In this document: positions 10,026 to 34,431 of the stretch, in pieces
Position numbering within the stretch: the first letter of the stretch is position 1
Layout: every line of letters starts with the position of its first letter
Origin: Myxococcales bacterium
GTDB lineage: Bacteria; Myxococcota_A; Polyangia; Polyangiales; Houyiibacteriaceae
Reading direction: 5' to 3'
DNA length: 34,431 nucleotides
Assembly: GCA_019637115.1 (NCBI GenBank)
Contig: JAHBWH010000079.1
Location: forward strand, 1-34,431
Notes under the pieces: generated by a model
Database searches by the model: none
The model's input: the letters and a program-made list of their open reading frames with translations, nothing else
Told to the model about the DNA's origin: nothing
Position numbers and translations under genes: made by a program

Positions 10026-12719
10026 ATGCGCTCGAACCTCGACTCGTCACGCCCGTCGCCCCGCCTCAGACGATGCCGTCACCCACCATGCGCGGTGCTC
10101 GTCCTCGCGATCGTTGGCGGCTGCGGGGGCGGCGAGCTCTCAACCACCCCCGCGATGGAGGGCGACGCGGGCCTCGCGCCGGAGGTCGAGCTCGAGGTGC
10201 TGCGCGATCGCGCCGTAGCGCTCGATACGCTCGGACCCGAAGCGCTGCGCGCGGGCGACGCGCTCCTGGTCGAGTGCGCCGTGCTCGACGCTGATGGCGA
10301 GCGCTCCGCGTGGCCGGCCGAGGCGACGCCGAGCTTTCGCTTCGTCCCCGAGTCGGCGGTGGCGCGGGCCCCCGACGGCGGTTGGGTGGCCGTGCGCGCG
10401 GGCGTGCTCCACGTCAGCTGCCTCTCCGACGCGTTAGGGCTCCTGGACGAAGAGCCCCTCGTCGTGCGCGTGCGAGCTTCCGAGCCGATCGCCACCGAGG
10501 CCACCCTCGAGACGCTCGAGCTCGACGCCGGCGACGCCGTTCGCGCGGCGTGCGTCGCGGTCGACGCCTGGGACAACGCGGTGGAGCTGCCACTCTCCCC
10601 CGAAGCCCACCCGAGCGAGCGCGTGACCCTCGAGGGCGGCGCGCTCCGCTTCGAGCGCGCGGGCACCTACGCCGTGAGCTGCCCGCACCCCGGCGCGGCA
10701 GCGCGCCCGGACGCGCTCACGGTGCGACCTGCCGCGCCCGCGAGCTTCACGCTCGGCGTGTCGCCGCGCCGCGAGATCTACAGTGTCGGCGAGGTCGTCG
10801 AGCTCGTGGCCGAGGTCCACGATCGCTTCGACAACCTCGTGCCCGGCGCGGCCCTCGACGTGCAGGCTCCCACGGGGGTCAACCGCCTCGGCGAACGCCG
10901 CGTCACGCTCGACGCCGAGGGGCGCCACCTCGTCCGTGCGCGCGTGGCGGGCATGGAGCGAGAGGTGCGCCTCGACGCGAACGGCGAGGGCCCGCGCATC
11001 CGCTGCACCGATCCCCCCGACGCGAGCGCGATCGTCGCCGAGCCGGGCACGCGCCTCGACGTGCGCGGCGTGGTCACGGACGTGCTCGGCGTGAGCGCGC
11101 TCGAGGTCGACGGCCGCTCGGTCGCGATCGGTCCGGCAGGTCAATGGTCCGCCTCGATCGATGCGGGGTCGGGCGTGCGCTTCGTCGAGCTCCGCGCGCG
11201 CGATCGCGGCGGCCTCGAGTCATCGAACGTGTGCACCTATCTCATCGCGCCGCGCTATGTCGACCCCGCAACCCCAATCGTCGCGGCCGGCACGATCGGC
11301 CTGTCACCCGCCGCGATCGACGACCGGCGCTCGAGCTTCACTTCGTTCGGCGACGGCCTGCGGCGAGTCCTCGGTCACGACGGCAACTGGCTACGCCTCG
11401 ACGCCGCACTACGCCGCGCGAACCCTCTCAAGCCACGCGCCTGCGACCAACCCGGCCCCTTCGGCACGTGCCTCGCCAGCTCGCGGATCGACTACCTCGC
11501 CTCATGGGTCGACGGCCCCAACGACGCGCAGCTCACGCCGGTGGCCGGCGGCCTCCGCGCTCGCGTCACGATCCCGAGCGTGCGCACGTCCCTGCGGGTC
11601 GATGCGCGCGCCGCGGGCGTCCCCGTCCGCTCGACGGGCGAAGTGACGATCGAAGACATCGAGCTCGCGCTCACCCTGAACGTCTCCATGCAAGGGGGGC
11701 GGCCTCGGGTCTCGCTGCGCGAGGGCAGCGAGACCCTGCGCATCGGACGGGTGCGGTCGAGCTTCCCCGGCATCTCCGGGGCGCTCCTCAACACCATCGT
11801 TCGTTTCACGGAGTCCCGGATTCGCGCCGCCGTCGTGGCCGCCTTGCTCGCAGAGCTTCGAACCCAGGCGGCGCGCTCGCTCGCCGGGATGCTGGCGGAT
11901 GTTGGCGCGCCGCAGGTTGCTCACCGCGCCTCGGTACCACGTCTCGACGGCGGCTCGAGCGTGCTGGTTGCGGGGGTCCGGCCCGGGCAGCTCGTGCTCG
12001 ACGCAGGCGGCCTGCGGCTCGGTCTGGATGCCACGCTTCGAGCGCAGCCGCGGCGCGCAGGCTTGCCGGCGGTCGGGGTCCCGGTCCCGCGCCACGATGG
12101 AGCCGCCCCGCTCCCGCTGCCGCCACGTCGCGCTGCCATCGCCACGGTGAGTACCGAGCTGCTCTCGCGCGCCGTGTACGCGCTCTGGGAAGCCGGCACC
12201 TTCGAGACCGCGGTCGCGGGCGCACGTGTCGGAAACTCCTCGAGCGACGCCCGCGCGAGCTTGTCCATGGCGCTCCCTCCCTATGTCGAGGTGCGCGACG
12301 GGCGCGCACACGTGGCGCTCGGCGGCGTCCGCGCGCGCGTCACTTGGCCCGGGCTGCTCGCGGAACCCCTCGATGTCGTGCTCGGCGCGAAGGCGAGCGC
12401 GGCGCTTCGACTACGGGGCGACGCCTTCGCGCTCGAAGCCGCGCGGGTCGACCAGGTCGTCGTCGGCAGTCCCTCGATCGTCCTCGCGCCAAGCGTGCGC
12501 GACGCGCTCGAGTCCTTCCTCACCCACATCGCGCGCTATTTCGTCGTCGAAGTCTTCGTCGCGTCGCTCCCGCGTTTGCCGTTGCCGCGTTTCCCGATCT
12601 CACCCGAGCTCCGAAGCTTCGGTCTGCCCGCGGGCGACCTCGGGCTCGTCGCCCCGAGCTTCGAGGTCCGCCCCCACGCCGCCATCCTCGACGCCGACCT
12701 CGGCTTGCTCGACCGCTGA
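10026..12719 (+). CDS. Secreted lipoprotein: Ig-like domains plus TULIP/BPI-like C-terminal half (paralog 1)
   Basis: It is about 897 residues long. The N-terminus has an Arg-rich region, a short hydrophobic core and a lipobox (AIVGGC, Cys33), so it is probably anchored to a membrane outside the cytoplasm. Residues about 45-410 form successive beta-rich Ig-like modules, the last one (ending near SSNVCTYL) of the type often met in bacterial surface proteins. The back half alternates beta stretches with amphipathic helices and carries LLSRAVYALWEAGTFE (about 712-727), which resembles the BPI/LBP-family signature near the start of the second barrel. Paralog 2 follows directly and has ALHVLWNMGALDVSL in the same place. 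If the fold is right, it would bind lipid in a hydrophobic groove. The start is uncertain: ATG 9972 is also in frame, and 10026 gives the shorter signal peptide. Confidence 0.6.
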   Translation: MRSNLDSSRPSPRLRRCRHPPCAVLVLAIVGGCGGGELSTTPAMEGDAGLAPEVELEVLRDRAVALDTLGPEALRAGDALLVECAVLDADGERSAWPAEATPSFRFVPESAVARAPDGGWVAVRAGVLHVSCLSDALGLLDEEPLVVRVRASEPIATEATLETLELDAGDAVRAACVAVDAWDNAVELPLSPEAHPSERVTLEGGALRFERAGTYAVSCPHPGAAARPDALTVRPAAPASFTLGVSPRREIYSVGEVVELVAEVHDRFDNLVPGAALDVQAPTGVNRLGERRVTLDAEGRHLVRARVAGMEREVRLDANGEGPRIRCTDPPDASAIVAEPGTRLDVRGVVTDVLGVSALEVDGRSVAIGPAGQWSASIDAGSGVRFVELRARDRGGLESSNVCTYLIAPRYVDPATPIVAAGTIGLSPAAIDDRRSSFTSFGDGLRRVLGHDGNWLRLDAALRRANPLKPRACDQPGPFGTCLASSRIDYLASWVDGPNDAQLTPVAGGLRARVTIPSVRTSLRVDARAAGVPVRSTGEVTIEDIELALTLNVSMQGGRPRVSLREGSETLRIGRVRSSFPGISGALLNTIVRFTESRIRAAVVAALLAELRTQAARSLAGMLADVGAPQVAHRASVPRLDGGSSVLVAGVRPGQLVLDAGGLRLGLDATLRAQPRRAGLPAVGVPVPRHDGAAPLPLPPRRAAIATVSTELLSRAVYALWEAGTFETAVAGARVGNSSSDARASLSMALPPYVEVRDGRAHVALGGVRARVTWPGLLAEPLDVVLGAKASAALRLRGDAFALEAARVDQVVVGSPSIVLAPSVRDALESFLTHIARYFVVEVFVASLPRLPLPRFPISPELRSFGLPAGDLGLVAPSFEVRPHAAILDADLGLLDR

Positions 12720-12721
12720 CG

Positions 12722-12810
12722 AGAAGCTCGGCCGATTCCGCAAGCCGCCCTACCGGACGGCGCGCAGGGGCTGGCGCCCTGGCGACAGCCCCTCGAAGGA
12801 AGCTGAATCG
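12722..12810 (+). repeat. Dispersed GNRA-hairpin repeat, copy B, after paralog 1
   Basis: This is the shorter (89 bp) copy of the element in the kinase gene. It begins two bases after the TGA of paralog 1 and lies in its sense orientation. It shares the CCCTACCGGACGGCGCGCAG block and the CTG-GCGA-CAG core followed by CCCCTCGAAGGAAGCTGA. The RNA could fold from GGGGCTG (12767-12773) to CAGCCCC (12786-12792), so it could serve as the gene's 3' hairpin. Confidence 0.72.
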
Positions 12811-12935
12811 ACCGCTCGATCCCCGCTCACGGAGCTCCGAAGCGGACCTGCGCAACCGCCGCGGGGTGGCTCTCCCCGACCCGAGCTCTTCTCGCCCTCC
12901 CCCTCTTCGAAGTCGACCTCCGCGTGCTCGACCGA
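12811..12935 (+). pseudogene. Possible degraded copy of the 3' end of paralog 1
   Basis: The stretch contains GAGCTCCGAAGC, also found near the end of paralog 1 (about 12608-12619), then loosely similar blocks, and ends CTTCGAAGTCGACCTCCGCGT-GCTCGACCG, which resembles the last codons of paralog 1 (LDADLGLLDR against LFEVDLRVLDR). The matching pieces fall in different frames, so if real this is a frameshifted remnant left by a tandem duplication. The similarity was judged by eye and is modest. Confidence 0.3.
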
Positions 12936-12953
12936 CGTCCAAAGGACCACCCG

Positions 12954-15230
12954 ATGCCGATCCCTTCTCGCGTTCACGCTTTCCTGCGAGCGCTGCTCCG
13001 CTGGCTCCTTCGTCGCCACCCAGCGTACGAGCCCCTCTCACCGTTCGGGCCTCCACCCCCAAGCTCGACCCGAGTCGTCGTGAATGACCGGCGTCGAGGT
13101 CGGCTGCGGCGCAGTCATTGCGCGGGCGGAAGACTCTTCGAGGAGGTCGGCGAGCGAGACCTGCGGCGACAGGCACAGATCCCCGGAACGAGCCTCGGAT
13201 GGGGGGCACTCGGCCCGCTCGCACTCACCACTACGCTCGTGGCGCTCGGTTGCGGGTCCGGACAGATCACGCAGGTCGCGCCAGGCGATTCGGAGGAAGG
13301 GGCGATGCCCCGCGTGTCGGTGCGACGCGTCGCTCTCCGGGTCTCGCCGCTACGCGCGGCGTATTGGACCGGCCAGCGGGTGCGGGTCGACCTCGTCGAC
13401 CTCGACACGGACGAGCCCGTCGCGGAGAGCCAGCTACGCTTCTCGCCCGAGACGGCGGCCGCGCTCGAAGAAGACGGATCTCTCACGCTCGTCGACGAAG
13501 GCTTGCTCGCGATCGAGCGCTGCGTCGAGACCGCCGCCACGTTGCACTGCGCCCAGGCCTCTCTCCGCGTCGACGACGGCTCGCCTCGACTCGCGCTCGA
13601 CGGCCCGCTGCACGGCACGGAGGTCGAAGAGGGCACTCTGTTCATCGAGGGTTCGGCGACCGACGCGCGTGAGCTCTCGGTCTTCGTGAACGGATCACCC
13701 GTTCCGCTCGACGATCTCGGACGCTTCACCGCCGAGATCCCGACCCGTCTCGGACTCGAATCGATCGAGATCGTGGCGAGCGACCGCTGGAGCCCACCCA
13801 CGCGGCTCGTCGCCGACGTCCTCGCCGCGCCGCGTTTCGAGGGCGGGGTCGCGATGAGCGGGGAGCCCGCAGTCTGGCTCTCGGAAGCGCTCGTGGTACG
13901 CGCGACGCAGCGCGCGCTCGATGACGGCGTGAGCAGCCCCCTCGACGCCCCAGAGGATGTCGCCGACCTGCTCCGCGCGGTGCTCGTGCGCACGGACCTC
14001 GGCGCCCTCGCCGCCTCGCGTTTTCAGTCGAGTGGCGTCGACCTTCGTGTGAACCGCGTGACCCAGCGTTCGCCCGAAGCGCGCCTCGACCTGCGTCCTG
14101 ACGGCGTCGACGTCTTCGTGCGCAGCACCTTCGTCGTCGCGACCAGCGGCCGGGCGGACGTCGGCGGCGCGACCGCGACCCTCGACGGCGAGATCTCGGC
14201 GCGAGTGGCGGCGGCGCTCACCCTCGACGCCGCGACCGGTGCACCACGCAACCTCTCGCTGCACCTCGAAGCCATCGATGCGCGCATGAACGACCCGCGG
14301 GTTGGCGCCCTCATCGAGCAAACCGGGAGCACGCTGCGACGGACGGTCGAGCGGGGCGCGAACGAACTCGCGCGGCGCATCGTCGACGCGCAGGTCGCGC
14401 CCGTCCTCGAGTCCGCCTGGGCGATGCTCCGGGCTGGCGTCGCGCAGCGTGTGGACGTGCCCACGCCCGGCGAACCCCTCGCGCTGCATCTCCGGGCGAG
14501 CGGTTCGCCGCCCGAGGTCACCCGCAGCGGCGTCCTCACGCTGCCGGCATCGCTGCGCATCGGTGGCGAAGGGGCCCCGAAGAAGGAGAGCCGCGGCCTC
14601 GGGCGCCACGCGCGCCCTCGCGCCGAAGGCCTGCCGCCCGCCGCCGACCTCGCTGCCTTCGCATCACTCGATGCGTTCAACGGCGCGCTGCATGTCCTGT
14701 GGAACATGGGCGCCCTCGACGTCTCGCTCGACGAGCTCGTGGCCGAAGCGAGCCGCGGACTCGTGAGCGAGGCGCGCCTCGCCGCCGACGTTCCGCCCTT
14801 CGTGCGCGCGCCGCGCCCGGGTGAGGCGGGCACGCTGGTCCTCGAGCTCGGCGCGCTCTCGCTCGACGTCGCGCAGGCCGAGCTGCGTGGGCGCTTCGGG
14901 GCACGCGCGCGGATCGCGGTCACGGCGAGGCTCGACGAACGCGGCGGACTCTCACTCGCGCTCGCGGACGTGGCACTCGACATCGAGACGCTCGAGCGCC
15001 CGCGAGGGCTCCTCGTCAGCGGCGAGCTCATCGAAGACCTCGTGCGAAGCCAGGCGCTGCCGATGTTGGAGACCGCGCTCGACGGGCTCGGCTTGGCCCT
15101 CGTGGGCGCGGTCGAGCACGAGGTCTCGCTCGGTTCGGCGCGCCTGCACGCTTCCCTCGTGGCGCGCGAGCTGCGGGTGGCCCACGGCTGGCTGATCGTC
15201 GACGCGGGCTGGCGCTTCGAGCTGCGCTGA
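12954..15230 (+). CDS. Secreted lipoprotein with Ig-like domain and TULIP/BPI-like half (paralog 2)
   Basis: Paralog of the preceding gene. A lipobox (LVALGC, Cys at 13251-13253) and the hydrophobic run before it look like a lipoprotein signal, yet the first in-frame ATG (12954, with AAAGGA seven bases upstream) lies 99 codons earlier. GTG 13080 or a non-canonical CTG at 13161 behind AGGAGG (13141-13146) would shorten the leader, so the true start is unsettled. After the lipobox come a short beta domain, an Ig-like module (LFIEGSATDARELSVFVNG) and the long lipid-binding-like region with ALHVLWNMGALDVSL (about residue 579) and a C-terminal barrel ending WLIVDAGWRFEL. Expected location is the periplasm or outer membrane. 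The tandem arrangement suggests a cooperating or heteromeric pair in lipid binding or transport. Confidence 0.6.
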   Translation: MPIPSRVHAFLRALLRWLLRRHPAYEPLSPFGPPPPSSTRVVVNDRRRGRLRRSHCAGGRLFEEVGERDLRRQAQIPGTSLGWGALGPLALTTTLVALGCGSGQITQVAPGDSEEGAMPRVSVRRVALRVSPLRAAYWTGQRVRVDLVDLDTDEPVAESQLRFSPETAAALEEDGSLTLVDEGLLAIERCVETAATLHCAQASLRVDDGSPRLALDGPLHGTEVEEGTLFIEGSATDARELSVFVNGSPVPLDDLGRFTAEIPTRLGLESIEIVASDRWSPPTRLVADVLAAPRFEGGVAMSGEPAVWLSEALVVRATQRALDDGVSSPLDAPEDVADLLRAVLVRTDLGALAASRFQSSGVDLRVNRVTQRSPEARLDLRPDGVDVFVRSTFVVATSGRADVGGATATLDGEISARVAAALTLDAATGAPRNLSLHLEAIDARMNDPRVGALIEQTGSTLRRTVERGANELARRIVDAQVAPVLESAWAMLRAGVAQRVDVPTPGEPLALHLRASGSPPEVTRSGVLTLPASLRIGGEGAPKKESRGLGRHARPRAEGLPPAADLAAFASLDAFNGALHVLWNMGALDVSLDELVAEASRGLVSEARLAADVPPFVRAPRPGEAGTLVLELGALSLDVAQAELRGRFGARARIAVTARLDERGGLSLALADVALDIETLERPRGLLVSGELIEDLVRSQALPMLETALDGLGLALVGAVEHEVSLGSARLHASLVARELRVAHGWLIVDAGWRFELR

Positions 15231-16030: not shown

Positions 16031-16046
16031 TGCAAACAAATTGCAT
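16031..16046 (-). promoter_or_regulatory. Zinc-regulon operator candidate, site 1 (DUF1826 gene)
   Basis: On the coding strand this reads ATGCAATTTGTTTGCA, containing a perfect inverted repeat TGCAA-N5-TTGCA. It lies in an AT-rich island between the WD40 remnant and the DUF1826 start. It matches site 2 (17190-17205) at 14 of 16 positions. A Fur-family repressor such as Zur is the natural candidate, inferred from the genes it precedes. Confidence 0.7.
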
Positions 16047-16059
16047 CACGAGAATGACG

Positions 16060-16851
16060 TCAACGTGAGAGCTCGTAAGCAACCACCGTCCCGGTCCTGG
16101 TGGTTACGATCAGGAGCTCCGACGGGCTCCAGGCGAGGGCCGTCACCTCGGCGCCCACCTCCGCGCCAGCGAGAGGCTCGGGAGAGCGCAGCGGCGACCA
16201 AAGCAACACGCGGCCAGCCCGGGTGCCGCCAGCGAGCGTCGCCTCGAGCGGCTTGAACGCCATCACGTCGCAGGGCACGTCGTCGTGACCGGAGAGGATC
16301 GTCGGCCGCTGCCCTTCGGGCCCCGTCGTGAAGTCCCAGGTGCACACGAGGCCTCCCCCGCTGGTCGCGAGCACCCTCCCCCGCGAGTCCCATACGATCG
16401 CCTTCGGTTTCGCGGGGAAGCCGTGCATCGCAGCGTCGCTGCCGCGATCGAGCCGCCAGAAGTGCACGGCGCCATCCTGCGTTCCGGATGCGATCACGGT
16501 GGCGTTGGGGCGCCACGCGGTCTGCAAGAGCGACCCCTTCCACGCGAGGTCCTTGGCCGCGGGCTCCCCCGCTTCGATCGACCAGAGCCGCAACCCTCCA
16601 TAGGCCGCGACGGCGAGCGTCCGACCATCGGCGGCATAGGCGAGCGCCTCGACGGTGCTCGCGTGTGGCTCGAGCACGTGCCGAAGCTCGCCAGATCGAT
16701 CGACGACGAGGATCCGACGGCGGTCGGCGATCGCGAGCAGAGCGCCGTCCGGCGTGAACGCGAGCCCGGCAGGGGTCGGCACGCACGCGGCGATCTCCCG
16801 GTGAGCGCACGCCGCCGCTTGGGTCCTGTCGGTCAGAACGACACCATCGGC
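16060..16851 (-). pseudogene. WD40-repeat protein, 5'-truncated by a deletion
   Basis: About 264 codons of beta-propeller remain: [78 protein letters not shown] and a final [13 protein letters not shown] blade. This resembles the WD40 proteins that accompany COG0523 GTPases in zinc-related clusters. The reading frame runs upstream to about 16851, where it meets the GTPase gene in a different frame. There is no ATG and no ribosome site, and the first blades are missing. A GTG at 16782 could start a shorter product, but the protein is unlikely to be a complete propeller. Treated as a pseudogene; a sequencing or assembly error at the junction is the alternative. Confidence 0.75.
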
Positions 16852-16852
16852 C

Positions 16853-17158
16853 CCCCGGATCGGCCATCCCCGTCGTCTCGACGAGGATCTGATCGAACCG
16901 GTCGCGTCGGCGCAAGAGGTTGCCGAGGATTCGAATCAGGTCCCCGCGGACGGTGCAGCAGATGCACCCGTTGTTCATCTCGAAGACCTCTTCGTCGGCG
17001 TCGATCACGAGCTCGTGGTCGATCCCGGTCTCGCCGAACTCGTTCTCGATGACGGCGATCCGTCTCCCGTGCTGCTCCGTCAGGATGCGGTTGAGGAGCG
17101 TCGTCTTCCCCGACCCGAGGAAGCCTGTGAGGATGGTGACGGGGATCTTGTCGGCCAT
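16853..17158 (-). pseudogene. COG0523 (CobW/ZigA-type) GTPase, truncated after residue 102
   Basis: The N-terminus is intact: Walker A GFLGSGKT (12-19), the family's metal-binding GCICC motif (Cys65, Cys67, Cys68), [12 protein letters not shown] and [10 protein letters not shown] (93-102). ATG 17158 has GGAGG four bases upstream (17163-17167). Family members are about 300-400 residues and act as GTP-dependent zinc (or other metal) chaperones. Here the sequence stops matching right after the ADPG of the G3 region. The frame continues open but encodes only the shadow of the WD40 gene, so the rest of the G domain and the CobW C-terminal domain are lost. Site 2 of the operator family lies 32 bp upstream of the start, consistent with zinc-starvation expression of the original gene. 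Confidence 0.8.
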
Positions 17159-17189
17159 GACGCCTCCAGCTATCGCATACACGATTCCA

Positions 17190-28838: not shown

Positions 28839-31800
28839 TCAGCGTCGTCGCAGCCGCTCGAGTATCGCCTTCGCGGCGCGAGGATCGTCGAGGGCCTCGA
28901 GGATCGCCCGGCGCTCGGCGTCTTCGAGCGGCTCTCCCGACAGGTGCGCGAGGTGGTGGAGCACGCGGCTGAGCTCGACCCGCGGAGGGCGGCGTTGTGA
29001 GCGGTCGACCTTGGTCGGCGCCTCGGCGCGACGACGCTGACCAGCCCCGCGGCGCTCGCCGCCTTCCTGCCGCGCAGGCGTTCCCCGTCGCCCCGCTCGA
29101 TGCTCGGCGGGATCGCCCGCGTCGCCCGACCACCCGCGCGGCGCCGACGCGCTCCGATCGCGTGGCGCGCGGAAGCGCCCCGGAGGTCGGCGCGCGACGC
29201 GGAGCGGCCGCCCGTCTCTCGTGGTGCTGGCGTCGATCGGGATCCACGCGGGCGCCCCGTGCGCGTCCTCGAGCAGCGCGAGCGCCCAAAGGTGGTCGGG
29301 CTCGGAGAGGTGCCCGCCGTCCATCACCCAGCCCGTGGCGAGCGCGGCGGGCACCCCGGCGCGCCGCATCAGCTCGCACGCGAGCGCGTTCAGCTCGTAG
29401 CAGACGCCCGCGCCGAGGTGCCGTCCGTCGCGCCCGGCGTGCAGCGCCGCGACGTGCACGTTCGCGCGTCCGCGCGTCGCGCGCGCGAGCCACCGCCCGA
29501 CCGAGGCGTCTTCGAGGTAGGTGGGGTCGTAACGGTAGCGCGCGCGGACGAAGTCGCGGACGCGGCGCGCGCGCTCGAGCGCGCTCGCGGCGTCGTCCTC
29601 GAGCGCGCCCAAGAAGTCGTGCACCTCGTCGGGCAGCTCGTCGTCGGGCACGGTCCGCTCGAGCGCCGCCGCGGGCGTCGCGCCGGCCGTGAGCCCGTCG
29701 AGCGCGGGCGCGGGGCCCAACGTCACGCGGAGCGTGACGTCGCTGCTCTCCGCGAGGTGAACGGACGTGAGGGGCCCCTCGACGCGCAGGCGCGGATCAC
29801 GACGGCCGAACGACAGCGCGGAGGGGCCCTCGTCGTGATCGACGACGATGGTGTCGAGCGCGCCGTAGTGTGGGATCGGCAGGAGAGACCTCCCCGCAGG
29901 AAGCCGCCCGCGCAGGGCGAGGACGCCCGCCTCGCCCCGCGCCGCAGGCACGTCGAGGGGCGCGGGCAACCAACGCTGCGTGCGGCGGTCGAAGCGGACA
30001 CCGACGAGGTTGGGCGCGTAGGCCCACGGCGGCGCGAGCCGCTCGGGCGTGAACGCGAAGCCATACGTCGGCACCTCGCGTCGGCGCTCGACCCAGCCCT
30101 CGGTGGTCTCGAGCTGACCCTCGAGCCTCTCGCGAGCGCGAAAGAATGCCTCGTCACCCGCCGACGAGCGCTCGACGCCCGATGTTCGGGACCGCCCGCT
30201 GCCCACCGTCGACGCGCTCGGCGGCGGTTTGCTGCGCGGCCCCGCCGCCTCGCGCGACGTTCGCGCGTCCGAGCCCTGGGCGCGCGCCTCGTCGCGAGCG
30301 TCGCCAGCGTCGTCGCGAGCGCCCCGGAAGAACCGGCGCACGCGCGCCATGAGCCCCTCACCGCTCGCGATACGGCGCGGCGGGGGCGCGGGAGGCGTAG
30401 GCGCCTCGTCGACGTCGTCGATCGAGCGCAGCCAGGCGCCGAGCGCCTCGCGTCGCGCCGCGTCGTCGCTCAAGGCGTCCGCGAGGCGCGCGGGCTCCTC
30501 GAGCGCGATCGCGGTCGCGCGCAGCACGCGTCCGTCGATCGCTGCGTCCGCCTCGAGCGCGAGGCGCGGACCGGCGCCGAGCTCGAGCGTGACCTCGAGC
30601 GCGAGCGACTCGTGGACGACGAGCGCGTCGATCGGTCGGTCGGGGGCGAGGCGCGGCAGGTGCGGCGCGAGCCGCGCGAAGAGCGCCGCCGCGCGCGCGT
30701 CGAGCGCCGCCGCGACGCGCGGCGATGGCCGCGGCCCGGGCGTCACCCGCTCGAGCCTCGCGCGCTCCCCGAGGTCGGGCACCCCCGAGCGCGCGAGCAG
30801 CCGCGCGATCGCGGGGTCGCGCGCGAGCGGCAGCGGCTCGGCCACGTCGAGGGTAGAGGCGTCGAGGGCCACCGCCTCGAGCGCCGCGGCGAGCGGCGGC
30901 GGGCCCCACGTGCGAACGCGTGGATCATCGACGCGCAGCAGCGTCACCCGATCGCCGAGGCGGACGGCCACCACCGCGTTGGGAGGGAGCACCTCGTCGG
31001 GCGCGATCTGCGCGAGCCGGTCGAGGCAAGCGGGGACCCGCGCGCAGAGCGCGTCTTCATCCGCGCGCTCACCTGAGGGCTCGTCGCCGAGCTCGACCAA
31101 GAAGTCCACGATCATGCGCGCGTCCGGGCGCGCGGGGACGCCGAGCGCCCGCGCGAGGCGAGGGGTCGCGTTGCCGGCCGGCCAGTCGGCCCGCCGGGCG
31201 CCGAAGAGCGCGCGCGCCTCCGCGCGGGCGAGCTGCCCGGGGGCCCGCGCGACGCCCTCGTCATCGATCAAGCGGAGCCCGGCGAAGGCATCGCGCACGT
31301 CCTCCGGCGAGAAGCGGCGCTCGCCGAGCCCCTCCTCGAGCCACGCGAGCAGCGCGTCGGTCGGGAGGCGATCGCCGAGCGCCGCGACCAGCTCGCGGGG
31401 CTCGGCGGTCGCGATCGTCCGGAACCCGAAACGACCGACGACGCGCCCGTCGGCCTCTCCCTCCAACCCTCCCTCGCGTGATCCCCTCAGCAGCTCGACG
31501 ATCGACGGATCTGGGAGCCGCAGGGCGCCGTTTCCCGGCGCACGCGAGCCCGGGCGCGCGGCAGCCGCGCGCCCGGCGGCCACATCCGACGACCGCGCGT
31601 TCGACGACCTCGCATCCGACGACCGCGCTTCCGACGACCGCCCGTCCGACGACCGCCCGTCCGACGACCTCGCGTCCGTCGACGTCGTGCCCGTCGACCT
31701 CGCGTCCGTCGACCTCGCGTCCGTCGACCTCGCGTCCGACGACCTCGCATCCGACGACCTCGCATCCGACGACCGCCCGTCCGACGACCGCCCGTCCGAC

Positions 31801-34431
31801 GACCGCCCGTCCGACGACCGCCCGCCCGACGACCGCCCGTCCGACGACCGCCCGTCCGACGACCGCCCGTCCGACTTCCTCGACGCCGACGACGCGCCCG
31901 CGGCGTCGGCGTCGAGGACGACGCGACTCGCCAACGCCCCAGGGTCACCGAGGAGCTCCCGCAGGCGCGCGTCGGGCCAGATGAGCGCGTTGGGCGCGGC
32001 CAGCTCGCCTTCGAGGTCGGGGATCCAGGCGCGCTCGCGGAGGCCCCAGGCATCGACGAGCCGCGGCGTCGCGCGGGCCCGCGAGGCCACGTACCGCGCG
32101 AGCGCGTGCGCGGCCGCGCGCGGCAGGCGCGCCACGACGTCGAGCTTCTCGAGCACGCGCGCGTCGTCGAGCTCCGATCGAGCGCCGCAGGCCGCGAGCA
32201 GGCGACGGCTGGGGGCGTCGAAGGACGATGCGTCGATCGCTGGCGGCGGCGCGTCGAGGAAGCGTCCGGGGTCGACTGAATGTTCGCGCGCGAGCTCGGG
32301 TGGCGGCATCCACGCGAAGCGCGGCTTCTCCCACCGTCGCAAAGAGCCCCCTGCCGTGCGCTCCCAGACCGGCACCTCGAGGCGCGCCCGGACGCCGAGC
32401 CGACGCAGCCGCCGGTCGAGCGCCGCGTCGTCCGCGTCGTCGGCGCCGATCGCGCGCGAGAGGAAGCGGACGAGCTCGAGCGCGCGCTCCACGTCGTCCG
32501 CGGCAGCGGCCTCGTCGAGCGCGTCGAGCACGCGCTCCACGATCACCCGCCGTGTCTCGCGATCGAGCGCGTAGCGTGCGCGGAGCCAGTCGGCGACGTC
32601 GCGCGGCACCTCCGGGGAGAGCCCCCACCCGAGCCCGAGGTCCGGCACCTCGGGATCGAGCACGAGCTCGCGGAGCGCGCTCGGCGCCCCCGCGCGCGAC
32701 GGGAAGACGCGCGCCGCCCCCAGGATCGAGCGCGCCTCCTCGTCGGCGTCCAGGGCGTCGCGCGCGTCGCGCAGCCACGCCACGAGCGCCGGGAGCGGGG
32801 CCGACGCCGTCTCGCGCAGCGCGTGCGCGACGCGCCGGACCGGCAGCGGGCGCACGCGCGGGCGCGAAGCCTCGGCGAGGAGCGTCGCCCACTCGGCATC
32901 GGCGAGCTCGCGCACGAGGGACTCGGCGGCGGTCGTCGGCCGCGTCGGCTGCACGCCAGCCGTAGGCTGCCGTGTCGCCCCCTCGGCGGCCGGAGGCGGA
33001 CCCAGCCCGGCACCAGCCGAAGGCTCGTCCGCGGATGGCGGCCACGTCGGCTCCGCGCCGGGCGTCGTCGACCGCGTCGGCCCCGCGCCCTCGACGCCCG
33101 CGCCGTGGGCGCGAGCGGGCTCCGTCAGCGCCGCGAGCAGCCCGCGCGTCGGCTCGCTCGCCTCGAAGCAGACGCCGCGGACGAGCCGCGTCTCGACGTC
33201 CAACGTGAGCGGCGCGTCCGTCGCCCGTGCTCGGTCGAGGAGAGGCGCCGCGTCGAGGATGCCCGCCAGCGCGGCGATCGCCTCGCGAGACCGAAACGGC
33301 CTCGGCTGCGCGTCGAGCCGCGCGCCTGGGACGAGCGGGGCGTGCACGTCGGCGACGGTCGCAACGTCTGCATCGGGCGCGTTCACTCGCGTGCCGACCG
33401 CCGCGCGCGGCGACTCGAGCGTATTGCGCGCACCGACGCTCGGCCGAGGCGAGCTGGCGACCTCGTCGGGCGGTGGCAAGAGCCGCGCGGCCAAGAAGGC
33501 CGCCGGCGCAGCGCGCGGGAGCCCGAGCTCGAGCACGACGCTGGCGGCCTCGTCGTCGAAGAGAGAGGCATCGAGCCACGGATCGTCGGCGGTGGCGGCG
33601 AGCAATCGCCCGACGTCCGCCGCCAAGAGCAGCTCCGTCGCGGGACGGCGTGGCCCGCGCCGCGACGCGAAGAGCGGCAAGCTCGCGAGCGTCCTACGGG
33701 TCGCGTCGTCGAGCGCGTCCGGGTGTGCGCGCGCGAGCGAGAGCAGCGCCGCGGGGCCCGTCCGCAGCGACGCGGCGCGCCGCAGCACGTCGAGCGGGCT
33801 CGGCGGTAGCGATCCGAGCGCGTCGAGGAGCGGCGCGAGCCGCGCCTCGTCGTCCGTCGCGAGCAGTGGCCACGGTCCGCTCGAGAGCAGTGGCCGCAGC
33901 GCGCCCGCGCGGTGCACGGCGCGCTCGTCGGGCGCTCGCCACGCCCCGAGCGCCCGCGCCACGCCGCGGGTGTCGACGAAGAGCGGCGCGGCGGCGAGCG
34001 GCGAGAGCGAAGACGGCCCGAGCCGACGCGCCGCCTCCGCGAGCGCGTCGTAAAGCGCCGCGCGCAGCGCGGGGGAGCGGAGCAGGGGCGGAGCAGCGCT
34101 CGCCACGGCCGGGTCCGCTGCGCGACGGAGAGGCACGCGACCCCTCGCGCCCGTGCCCGTGGCAGCCGCGCGATCGTGCGCGTCCACGTCCACGTCCACG
34201 TCCACGTCCACGACGTCCACGACGTCCACGACGTCCACGACGTCCACGACGTCCACGACGTCCACGACGTCCACGACGTCCACGACGTCCACGTCGTCCA
34301 CGTCCACGTCCACGTCCACGTGCGCGTGCGCGTGCGCGGGCGGGTCCGTCGCCGAACGCGAGTCCGAGTCCGAGTCCGAGTCCGTGTCCGAGTCCGAGTC
34401 CGAGTCCGAGTCCGTGTCCGTGTCCGAGTCC
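28839..34431 (-). CDS. Giant sacsin-like protein with C-terminal transglutaminase domain (5' end outside window)
   Basis: About 1,863 codons, open to the window edge, so the N-terminus is missing. Much of it is Leu/Ala/Arg-rich helical sequence punctuated by short LPLFxxxxG-type strands (SLPLFASRRG, ARVFPSRAG, AWIPDLEGELAAP, LRLIDDEGVARAPG). These resemble sacsin repeats, whose proteins carry an N-terminal Hsp90-like ATPase that would lie outside the window. The C-terminus holds a transglutaminase-like fold: Cys in GVCYELNALACELMRRAGVP (29400-29402), His in DHLWAL (29292-29294) and Asp in PIDAST (29232-29234), followed by a basic tail. Three disordered tracts (DS/TD, VDV and SDGRS repeats) interrupt it. 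A role as chaperone-like scaffold with a protein-modifying domain is inferred from architecture only. The stop is followed by a hairpin. Confidence 0.8.
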   Translation of the reverse strand, partial: DSDTDTDSDSDSDSDTDSDSDSDSRSATDPPAHAHAHVDVDVDVDDVDVVDVVDVVDVVDVVDVVDVVDVVDVVDVDVDVDVDAHDRAAATGTGARGRVPLRRAADPAVASAAPPLLRSPALRAALYDALAEAARRLGPSSLSPLAAAPLFVDTRGVARALGAWRAPDERAVHRAGALRPLLSSGPWPLLATDDEARLAPLLDALGSLPPSPLDVLRRAASLRTGPAALLSLARAHPDALDDATRRTLASLPLFASRRGPRRPATELLLAADVGRLLAATADDPWLDASLFDDEAASVVLELGLPRAAPAAFLAARLLPPPDEVASSPRPSVGARNTLESPRAAVGTRVNAPDADVATVADVHAPLVPGARLDAQPRPFRSREAIAALAGILDAAPLLDRARATDAPLTLDVETRLVRGVCFEASEPTRGLLAALTEPARAHGAGVEGAGPTRSTTPGAEPTWPPSADEPSAGAGLGPPPAAEGATRQPTAGVQPTRPTTAAESLVRELADAEWATLLAEASRPRVRPLPVRRVAHALRETASAPLPALVAWLRDARDALDADEEARSILGAARVFPSRAGAPSALRELVLDPEVPDLGLGWGLSPEVPRDVADWLRARYALDRETRRVIVERVLDALDEAAAADDVERALELVRFLSRAIGADDADDAALDRRLRRLGVRARLEVPVWERTAGGSLRRWEKPRFAWMPPPELAREHSVDPGRFLDAPPPAIDASSFDAPSRRLLAACGARSELDDARVLEKLDVVARLPRAAAHALARYVASRARATPRLVDAWGLRERAWIPDLEGELAAPNALIWPDARLRELLGDPGALASRVVLDADAAGASSASRKSDGRSSDGRSSDGRSSGGRSSDGRSSDGRSSDGRSSDARSSDARSSDARSTDARSTDARSTGTTSTDARSSDGRSSDGRSSEARSSDARSSNARSSDVAAGRAAAARPGSRAPGNGALRLPDPSIVELLRGSREGGLEGEADGRVVGRFGFRTIATAEPRELVAALGDRLPTDALLAWLEEGLGERRFSPEDVRDAFAGLRLIDDEGVARAPGQLARAEARALFGARRADWPAGNATPRLARALGVPARPDARMIVDFLVELGDEPSGERADEDALCARVPACLDRLAQIAPDEVLPPNAVVAVRLGDRVTLLRVDDPRVRTWGPPPLAAALEAVALDASTLDVAEPLPLARDPAIARLLARSGVPDLGERARLERVTPGPRPSPRVAAALDARAAALFARLAPHLPRLAPDRPIDALVVHESLALEVTLELGAGPRLALEADAAIDGRVLRATAIALEEPARLADALSDDAARREALGAWLRSIDDVDEAPTPPAPPPRRIASGEGLMARVRRFFRGARDDAGDARDEARAQGSDARTSREAAGPRSKPPPSASTVGSGRSRTSGVERSSAGDEAFFRARERLEGQLETTEGWVERRREVPTYGFAFTPERLAPPWAYAPNLVGVRFDRRTQRWLPAPLDVPAARGEAGVLALRGRLPAGRSLLPIPHYGALDTIVVDHDEGPSALSFGRRDPRLRVEGPLTSVHLAESSDVTLRVTLGPAPALDGLTAGATPAAALERTVPDDELPDEVHDFLGALEDDAASALERARRVRDFVRARYRYDPTYLEDASVGRWLARATRGRANVHVAALHAGRDGRHLGAGVCYELNALACELMRRAGVPAALATGWVMDGGHLSEPDHLWALALLEDAHGAPAWIPIDASTTRDGRPLRVARRPPGRFRAPRDRSASAPRGWSGDAGDPAEHRAGRRGTPARQEGGERRGAGQRRRAEAPTKVDRSQRRPPRVELSRVLHHLAHLSGEPLEDAERRAILEALDDPRAAKAILERLRRR
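31585..31875 (-). repeat. 15-bp minisatellite encoding SDGRS pentapeptides
   Basis: About 19.4 units of GACGACCGCCCGTCC read on the coding strand as SDGRS, with SDARS, TDARS, SGGRS, SEARS and SNARS variants. Being a multiple of three, it keeps the giant protein's frame and gives a hydrophilic linker between two helical regions. Confidence 0.95.
34182..34325 (-). repeat. 6- and 9-bp repeats encoding a VDV tract
   Basis: GTCCAC hexamers flank a core of GTCCACGAC nonamers (about 34205-34290), read on the coding strand as VD and VVD repeats; GTGCGC units at the right end encode HA. Frame is preserved throughout. Confidence 0.92.
34359..34431 (-). repeat. 6-bp repeats encoding a Ser-Asp tract, continues past window
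   Basis: GAGTCC units with a few GTGTCC variants, read on the coding strand as SD with occasional TD. The same reading frame as the giant gene, and it runs to the last base. Confidence 0.9.

Follow-up and report, generated by a model that had tools for sequence, protein, structure and literature searches.

The proteins of the LBP/BPI/CETP family (PF01273 and PF02886; structures 1ewf, 4m4d and 2obd) are boomerangs made of two pseudo-repeats and a central sheet, with a long helix in each half, an NxxxxALWxxG-type helix opening the second half and a C-terminal stretch of the Phe-Pro-Leu-Pro type. The barrels of BPI, LBP and CETP hold acyl chains. BPI works through a strongly cationic N-terminal barrel; this feature, like the disulphide of BPI and LBP, is dispensable in CETP. 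Known bacterial families of the TULIP superfamily are few and their link to eukaryotic BPI-type proteins is weak, according to PMC6791001, in which DUF4403 (PF14356) is described as a bacterial full-length BPI homologue with a predicted double TULIP. YceB (3l6i), a TULIP lipoprotein of E. coli, consists of a single barrel and has neither an Ig stalk nor a paired protein, and the P47/OrfX proteins of Clostridium, which are located in toxin gene clusters, have a TULIP-type fold but are non-lipoproteins without an Ig stalk. Adhesins of the invasin/EaeH type carry arrays of Ig-like repeats but no TULIP domain.

The window analysed here, a contig of 34.4 kb with 72% GC from a genome of 8.9 Mb, contains two adjacent lipoprotein genes, P1 and P2. 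With the LBP/BPI/CETP family their products share the full-length boomerang with its pseudo-repeats, central sheet, long helices, second-half helix and C-terminal stretch, as predicted from models and alignments, and sequence profiles match. Unlike that family, P1 and P2 are bacterial and lipid-anchored, have an Ig-like stalk as in invasin/EaeH-type arrays, occur as a conserved pair, and their relatives have N-terminal barrels that are not cationic; individual P1 and P2 proteins lie below the Pfam cut-off of the family. YceB is likewise a lipoprotein and superposes on the second half of P1 (Z 10.3), while the P47/OrfX proteins gave Z values of about 10-12 and no sequence match to P1 or P2 was found. 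An assignment to DUF4403 was rejected, as PF14356 matches other genes of these genomes but neither P1 nor P2, and the profile-profile probability was 0.6%; the layout of an Ig-stalked pair is also absent from the description of DUF4403 in the consulted passages of PMC6791001. Two DUF4403 proteins are encoded in tandem in the source genome (L164 and L165; G000:C47:12308-15236), another type of BPI-like pair. A literature search, with subscription journals and preprints outside its coverage, found no paper on TULIP proteins from Myxococcota or Bdellovibrio. Fold and superfamily are known, while an Ig-stalked, lipid-anchored, paired and phylum-wide family with a sequence relation to LBP/BPI was not found in the searched family libraries or literature. 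The predicted fold, the pairing and the spread across Myxococcota suggest that P1 and P2 belong to a family of lipid-handling proteins of the outer membrane that has not been described before.

Layout of the P1 and P2 genes

In an earlier note the locus had been read as two tandem lipoproteins, each with a lipobox, an Ig-like front and a long domain, and the open reading frames, lipoboxes and Ig matches of orthologues confirm this description (Table 1). In both proteins a hydrophobic stretch with the lipobox cysteine is followed by Ig-like modules and a C-terminal domain of ~490 residues in P1 and ~465 residues in P2. The P1 frame is free of stops over 897 codons, where ~14 would be predicted from composition (chance 1e-6), and its GC content at the three codon positions (0.78/0.55/0.88) compares with that of the adjoining kinase gene (0.76/0.51/0.86), with similar values for the TULIP part of P2. 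Among 57 near genomes, homologues were found for P1 in 16 and for P2 in 14, at identities of about 25-37%. In an hhalign comparison (2.8e-41), P2 corresponds to the P1 double barrel together with the two Ig modules that precede it, which makes the two proteins paralogues.

Table 1. Coordinates of the features of the P1-P2 locus within the window
Feature	Position	Strand	Evidence
P1 lipoprotein gene, 897 aa	10026..12719	+	ORF with ATG start at 10026 and stop codon 12717-12719; homologues in 16/57 near genomes; no stop where ~14 expected
P1 signal peptide and lipobox VGGC, lipidated Cys33	10026..10124	+	Sequence; comparable lipoprotein signals in orthologues
P1 Ig-like stalk, at least 3, probably 4 modules	10161..11243	+	EaeH Ig match; Big_1, Invasin_D3 and Glucodextran_B in orthologues
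P1 BPI-type double-barrel (TULIP) domain, predicted	11244..12716	+	pLDDT 80.9; BPI Z 22.3 over 418 residues; widened profile LBP E 4.9e-6
P1 barrel halves, predicted	first ~11277-11939; second ~12135-12716	+	
ALWEAG helix opening the P1 second half	12180..12197	+	W and G nearly invariant; helix 304-316 in model
Decayed dispersed 162-bp MITE-like element between P1 and P2	13047..13208	+	~40 genome copies; terminal inverted repeats
P2 lipoprotein gene	13080..15230	+	ORF with stop codon 15228-15230; GTG 13080 is the nearest ordinary in-frame start; homologous part from ~13218 on; normal start behind P1 in orthologues
P2 signal-peptide core and lipobox ALGC	13218..13253	+	Sequence, compared with orthologues; Cys codon 13251-13253
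P2 Ig-like stalk, 2 modules	13335..13832	+	Glucodextran_B E 1.3e-5; profile match to P1 modules 3 and 4
P2 BPI-type double-barrel (TULIP) domain, predicted	13833..15227	+	pLDDT 81.7, pTM 0.79; BPI Z 21.1 over 398 residues; Foldseek BPI E 4e-17

Searches of Pfam, NCBIfam and PHROGs with the window proteins returned no named family and only a sub-threshold Ig match. The nature of the stalks is apparent from the orthologues: Glucodextran_B-like Ig modules were found in 15 of 16 P1 and 13 of 14 P2 orthologues, with Big_1 and Invasin_D3 in others, and the P1 profile matched the Ig array of the adhesin EaeH with an E-value of 1e-7.

By inspection, a lipoprotein signal with a lipobox cysteine is present in P1 and its orthologues; in the window P2 the lipobox is kept and the start is displaced. 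A lysine at position +2, which marks inner-membrane lipoproteins in Myxococcus xanthus (PMC3222651), is absent from P1, P2 and the listed orthologues. By analogy with this rule, which was taken from a different myxobacterium, the signals would fit a placement in the outer membrane.

Predicted double-barrel domains and their relation to LBP and BPI

AlphaFold2 models of the C-terminal domains were built from 15 (P1) and 13 (P2) sequences. In each model a helix-strand-long helix unit occurs twice, and a central sheet connects the two. The top Foldseek matches were LBP, BPI and CETP, with E-values of 4e-20 to 1e-17 for P1 and 4e-17 to 3e-14 for P2. In VIA-align the superposition on BPI covered both halves of either model, at an rmsd of 4.6 for P1 and 4.4 for P2 (Z-scores and aligned lengths in Table 1), while single-barrel TULIPs (Der p 7, PLUNC, JHBP and YceB) scored lower, with Z values of 8-13. 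The models thus support the view that the C-terminal domains of P1 and P2 are BPI-type double-barrel boomerangs along their whole length. The earlier note had suggested a BPI-like fold and a comparison with BPI, CETP and YceB; two half-barrels in a boomerang are what the models of both proteins give, BPI is the best match over the full length, and sequence profiles lead to LBP and BPI as well. Along the predicted strands hydrophobicity alternates, the pattern needed for a lined barrel, clearly in P2 (combined p 7e-10) and more weakly in P1 (7e-4).

As a single-sequence phmmer search against the PDB gave no useful match, profiles were built. The first P1 profile matched LBP and BPI with E-values of 0.007 and 0.014, and after widening to 32 relatives these improved to 4.9e-6 and 9.6e-5, with no other match. 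The P2 profile alone is weak against LBP and BPI (0.1-0.3), and the probable membership of P2 in this group rests on its modelled fold and its paralogy with P1. PF01273 did not match P1 or P2 of the window, and an E-value below 0.01 was reached by 5 of 32 P1 relatives. Cysteine pairs are kept in the P1 family.

A more distant subfamily in Myxococcota (L186, L187 and L188) comprises Ig-fronted BPI-like proteins from open frames of ~1000-1450 aa, most with a recognisable lipobox and often also in tandem pairs. It is linked to P1 by profile comparison (6e-47), and its own profile matches LBP at 1.4e-13 and BPI at 1.5e-8, the BPI alignment extending into the second half. Some of its members pass the Pfam cut-off of PF01273, in 11 of 95 genomes. 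In this subfamily the helix NQILYALWWGG, the counterpart of the ALWxAG/LWNMGAL signature, is aligned with YAFNIASRVYHQAG, a helix of LBP. This helix, on which the earlier note had based its reading, proved to be real: its tryptophan (ALWEAG in P1, LWNMGAL in P2) is invariant in 32 P1 and 29 P2 relatives, and the related-subfamily counterpart aligns with the helix that opens the C-terminal half of BPI and LBP. Together with Pro-Pro and PIPSF/PIPEI, this tryptophan makes up the invariant residues of the C-terminal domain, which is common to all subfamilies. Since both sequence profiles and the whole-length fold link a large family of bacterial lipoproteins to LBP and BPI, phylogeny can be used to test the bacterial roots of the LBP/BPI/CETP family. 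In a set of shorter paralogues (L030-L034, in G034, G053 and G043), VAPDM/VAPDMI pentapeptides are repeated in tandem in or after the second barrel half.

Conserved pairing and the divergent window copy

Of 36 P1 loci examined, which cover several families and classes and include a few near-duplicates, one lies at a contig edge, leaving 35 with downstream sequence. P2 is the next gene downstream on the same strand in 33 of these, the exceptions being G040 and G063. From the P1 stop to the first matched P2 residue the distance is -1 to 157 nt in 32 loci and 507 nt in the window. A conserved third gene was sought around the ~36 P1 loci and none was found. Within the order, a profile search detected the P1-type domain in 32 of 183 genomes, and across the phylum in 180 of 377 sampled Myxococcota genomes; for this phylum the earlier statement that bacterial members of the fold are few is therefore wrong. 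One entire genus of the same family, closely related to the source genome, lacks the domain, so its function is accessory rather than essential. A scan of a collection with a narrow alignment gave nine named loci. The near relatives that carry names are MAGs of marine and other origin with the labels Sandaracinus, Sandaracinaceae and Myxococcota, which makes the source organism a myxobacterium within or close to Sandaracinaceae.

The source genome contains a second pair, with a P1-like gene on contig C45 and a P2-like partner that is cut off by the contig end, its remainder probably lying on C172. In the tree this pair groups with a genome of the same genus (G001), while the window P1 sits on a long branch; a join of the window P1 with that of G040 was set aside, as both are long branches. 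The pair in the window represents an additional, divergent copy.

Between the two genes of the window lies the 162-bp element, which has near-perfect terminal inverted repeats of ~30 bp (TGCCCCCAACCCGAAGTTCGTTCCGGG...) and recurs in the genome about 40 times (70-99%). With 77% identity to the consensus, compared with 86-99% for the others, the window element is the most drifted of the copies aligned. As an Rfam search gave no match, its identification as a known RNA was rejected, and the element was not found as an exact pattern in viral contigs. Whereas other P2 genes have a normal signal peptide directly after P1, the signal core of the window P2 directly adjoins the element, so that P2 has no ordinary start beside its signal peptide; the element has taken the place of the normal start. 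An in-frame GTG inside the element is the closest ordinary start. As the element is 23% off the consensus and the P2 frame is still open, P2 has probably been under selection after the insertion. This suggests that the window P2 outlived the insertion under selection, with a start supplied by the element, although the element could have been divergent already before it inserted. Lacking an ordinary start near its signal peptide, this copy may be poorly made. Just 3' of P1, short stretches of 12721-12811 recur on contigs C60 and C8 at 89-96% identity; they represent a second, smaller repeat, with one pair closely spaced.

Proposed role of the pair and rival explanations

We think it fairly probable that P1 and P2 form a pair tethered to the outer membrane, which binds or transfers lipids or other hydrophobic molecules via stalked double barrels of the BPI/LBP type. 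Both proteins would be anchored in the outer membrane with the double barrel at the end of the Ig-like stalk, and, by analogy with BPI and CETP, each barrel would enclose acyl chains or a different hydrophobic ligand in its core. The tethered domain could then extract lipids, carry them across an aqueous gap and hand them over. As the tight gene pair is kept across the phylum, joint action of P1 and P2 is most likely, either within a heteromer or in a relay that works at two heights, with stalks of three to four and two modules, respectively. The strict pairing offers a simple genetic target of two genes for the question whether bacteria of a phylum with many predatory and social members move lipids with BPI-like proteins.

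Such a pair might also face inward from the outer membrane, as a periplasmic device that carries lipids between the inner and outer membranes, a role proposed for bacterial TULIP and AsmA-type proteins, and we regard this as a serious possibility, if a less probable one. The default destination of lipoproteins is the inner leaflet of the outer membrane, and several Ig modules together with a BPI-sized domain could span the periplasm; bacterial TULIPs have also been proposed to act in the envelope (PMC6791001). The patchy presence in the order and the genus without the domain are, however, unlike an essential envelope pathway, and Ig modules of the invasin/EaeH type usually belong to surface structures.

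That the window pair is a decaying copy without present function, its P2 start lost to the repeat element, appears unlikely. The position of the element, the long branch and the second pair elsewhere in the genome would all be in agreement with decay, but both frames are fully open and have a normal codon-position composition despite the drift of the element.

More speculative still is a wider version of the favoured lipid-handling role, in which Myxococcota carry the closest bacterial relatives of LBP, BPI and CETP as a surface-exposed pair that would move lipids between cells, for instance in outer-membrane exchange among kin or in the uptake of prey lipids. It is similarly improbable that the Ig stalks are the working part of an adhesin, with the double barrel as a structural end domain without a lipid ligand: the modules resemble those of EaeH and invasin and stalk length differs among paralogues, but the invariant Trp, Pro-Pro and PIPSF/PIPEI residues lie in the C-terminal domain.

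Most doubtful is a predation factor that binds the lipopolysaccharide of prey or neighbours like BPI and permeabilises or captures Gram-negative cells, since, even though LBP and BPI are the closest sequence relatives of known function and many members of the Myxococcota are predatory, the N-terminal barrels of the relatives are neutral to acidic (4-13 Lys/Arg versus 34-43 Asp/Glu in P2; mostly neutral to acidic in P1, with only the window P1 basic) and no predation genes lie nearby.

Among the neighbouring genes none points to surface exposure, predation, lipid exchange or outer-membrane traffic. On the minus strand downstream of P2, 15326-15997 encodes a DUF1826 protein; with the cobW remnant beside it, the arrangement is reminiscent of zinc-responsive gene sets. 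In the remnant (16046-17182, minus strand) the N-terminal portion of a CobW-type GTPase gene, covering 98 of 180 profile positions, is followed by WD40 repeats in another frame; either the gene is broken or fused, or two pieces were joined in assembly. Further along the same strand, 28839-34319 encodes a protein of 1826 aa with a transglutaminase-like core near its C-terminus.
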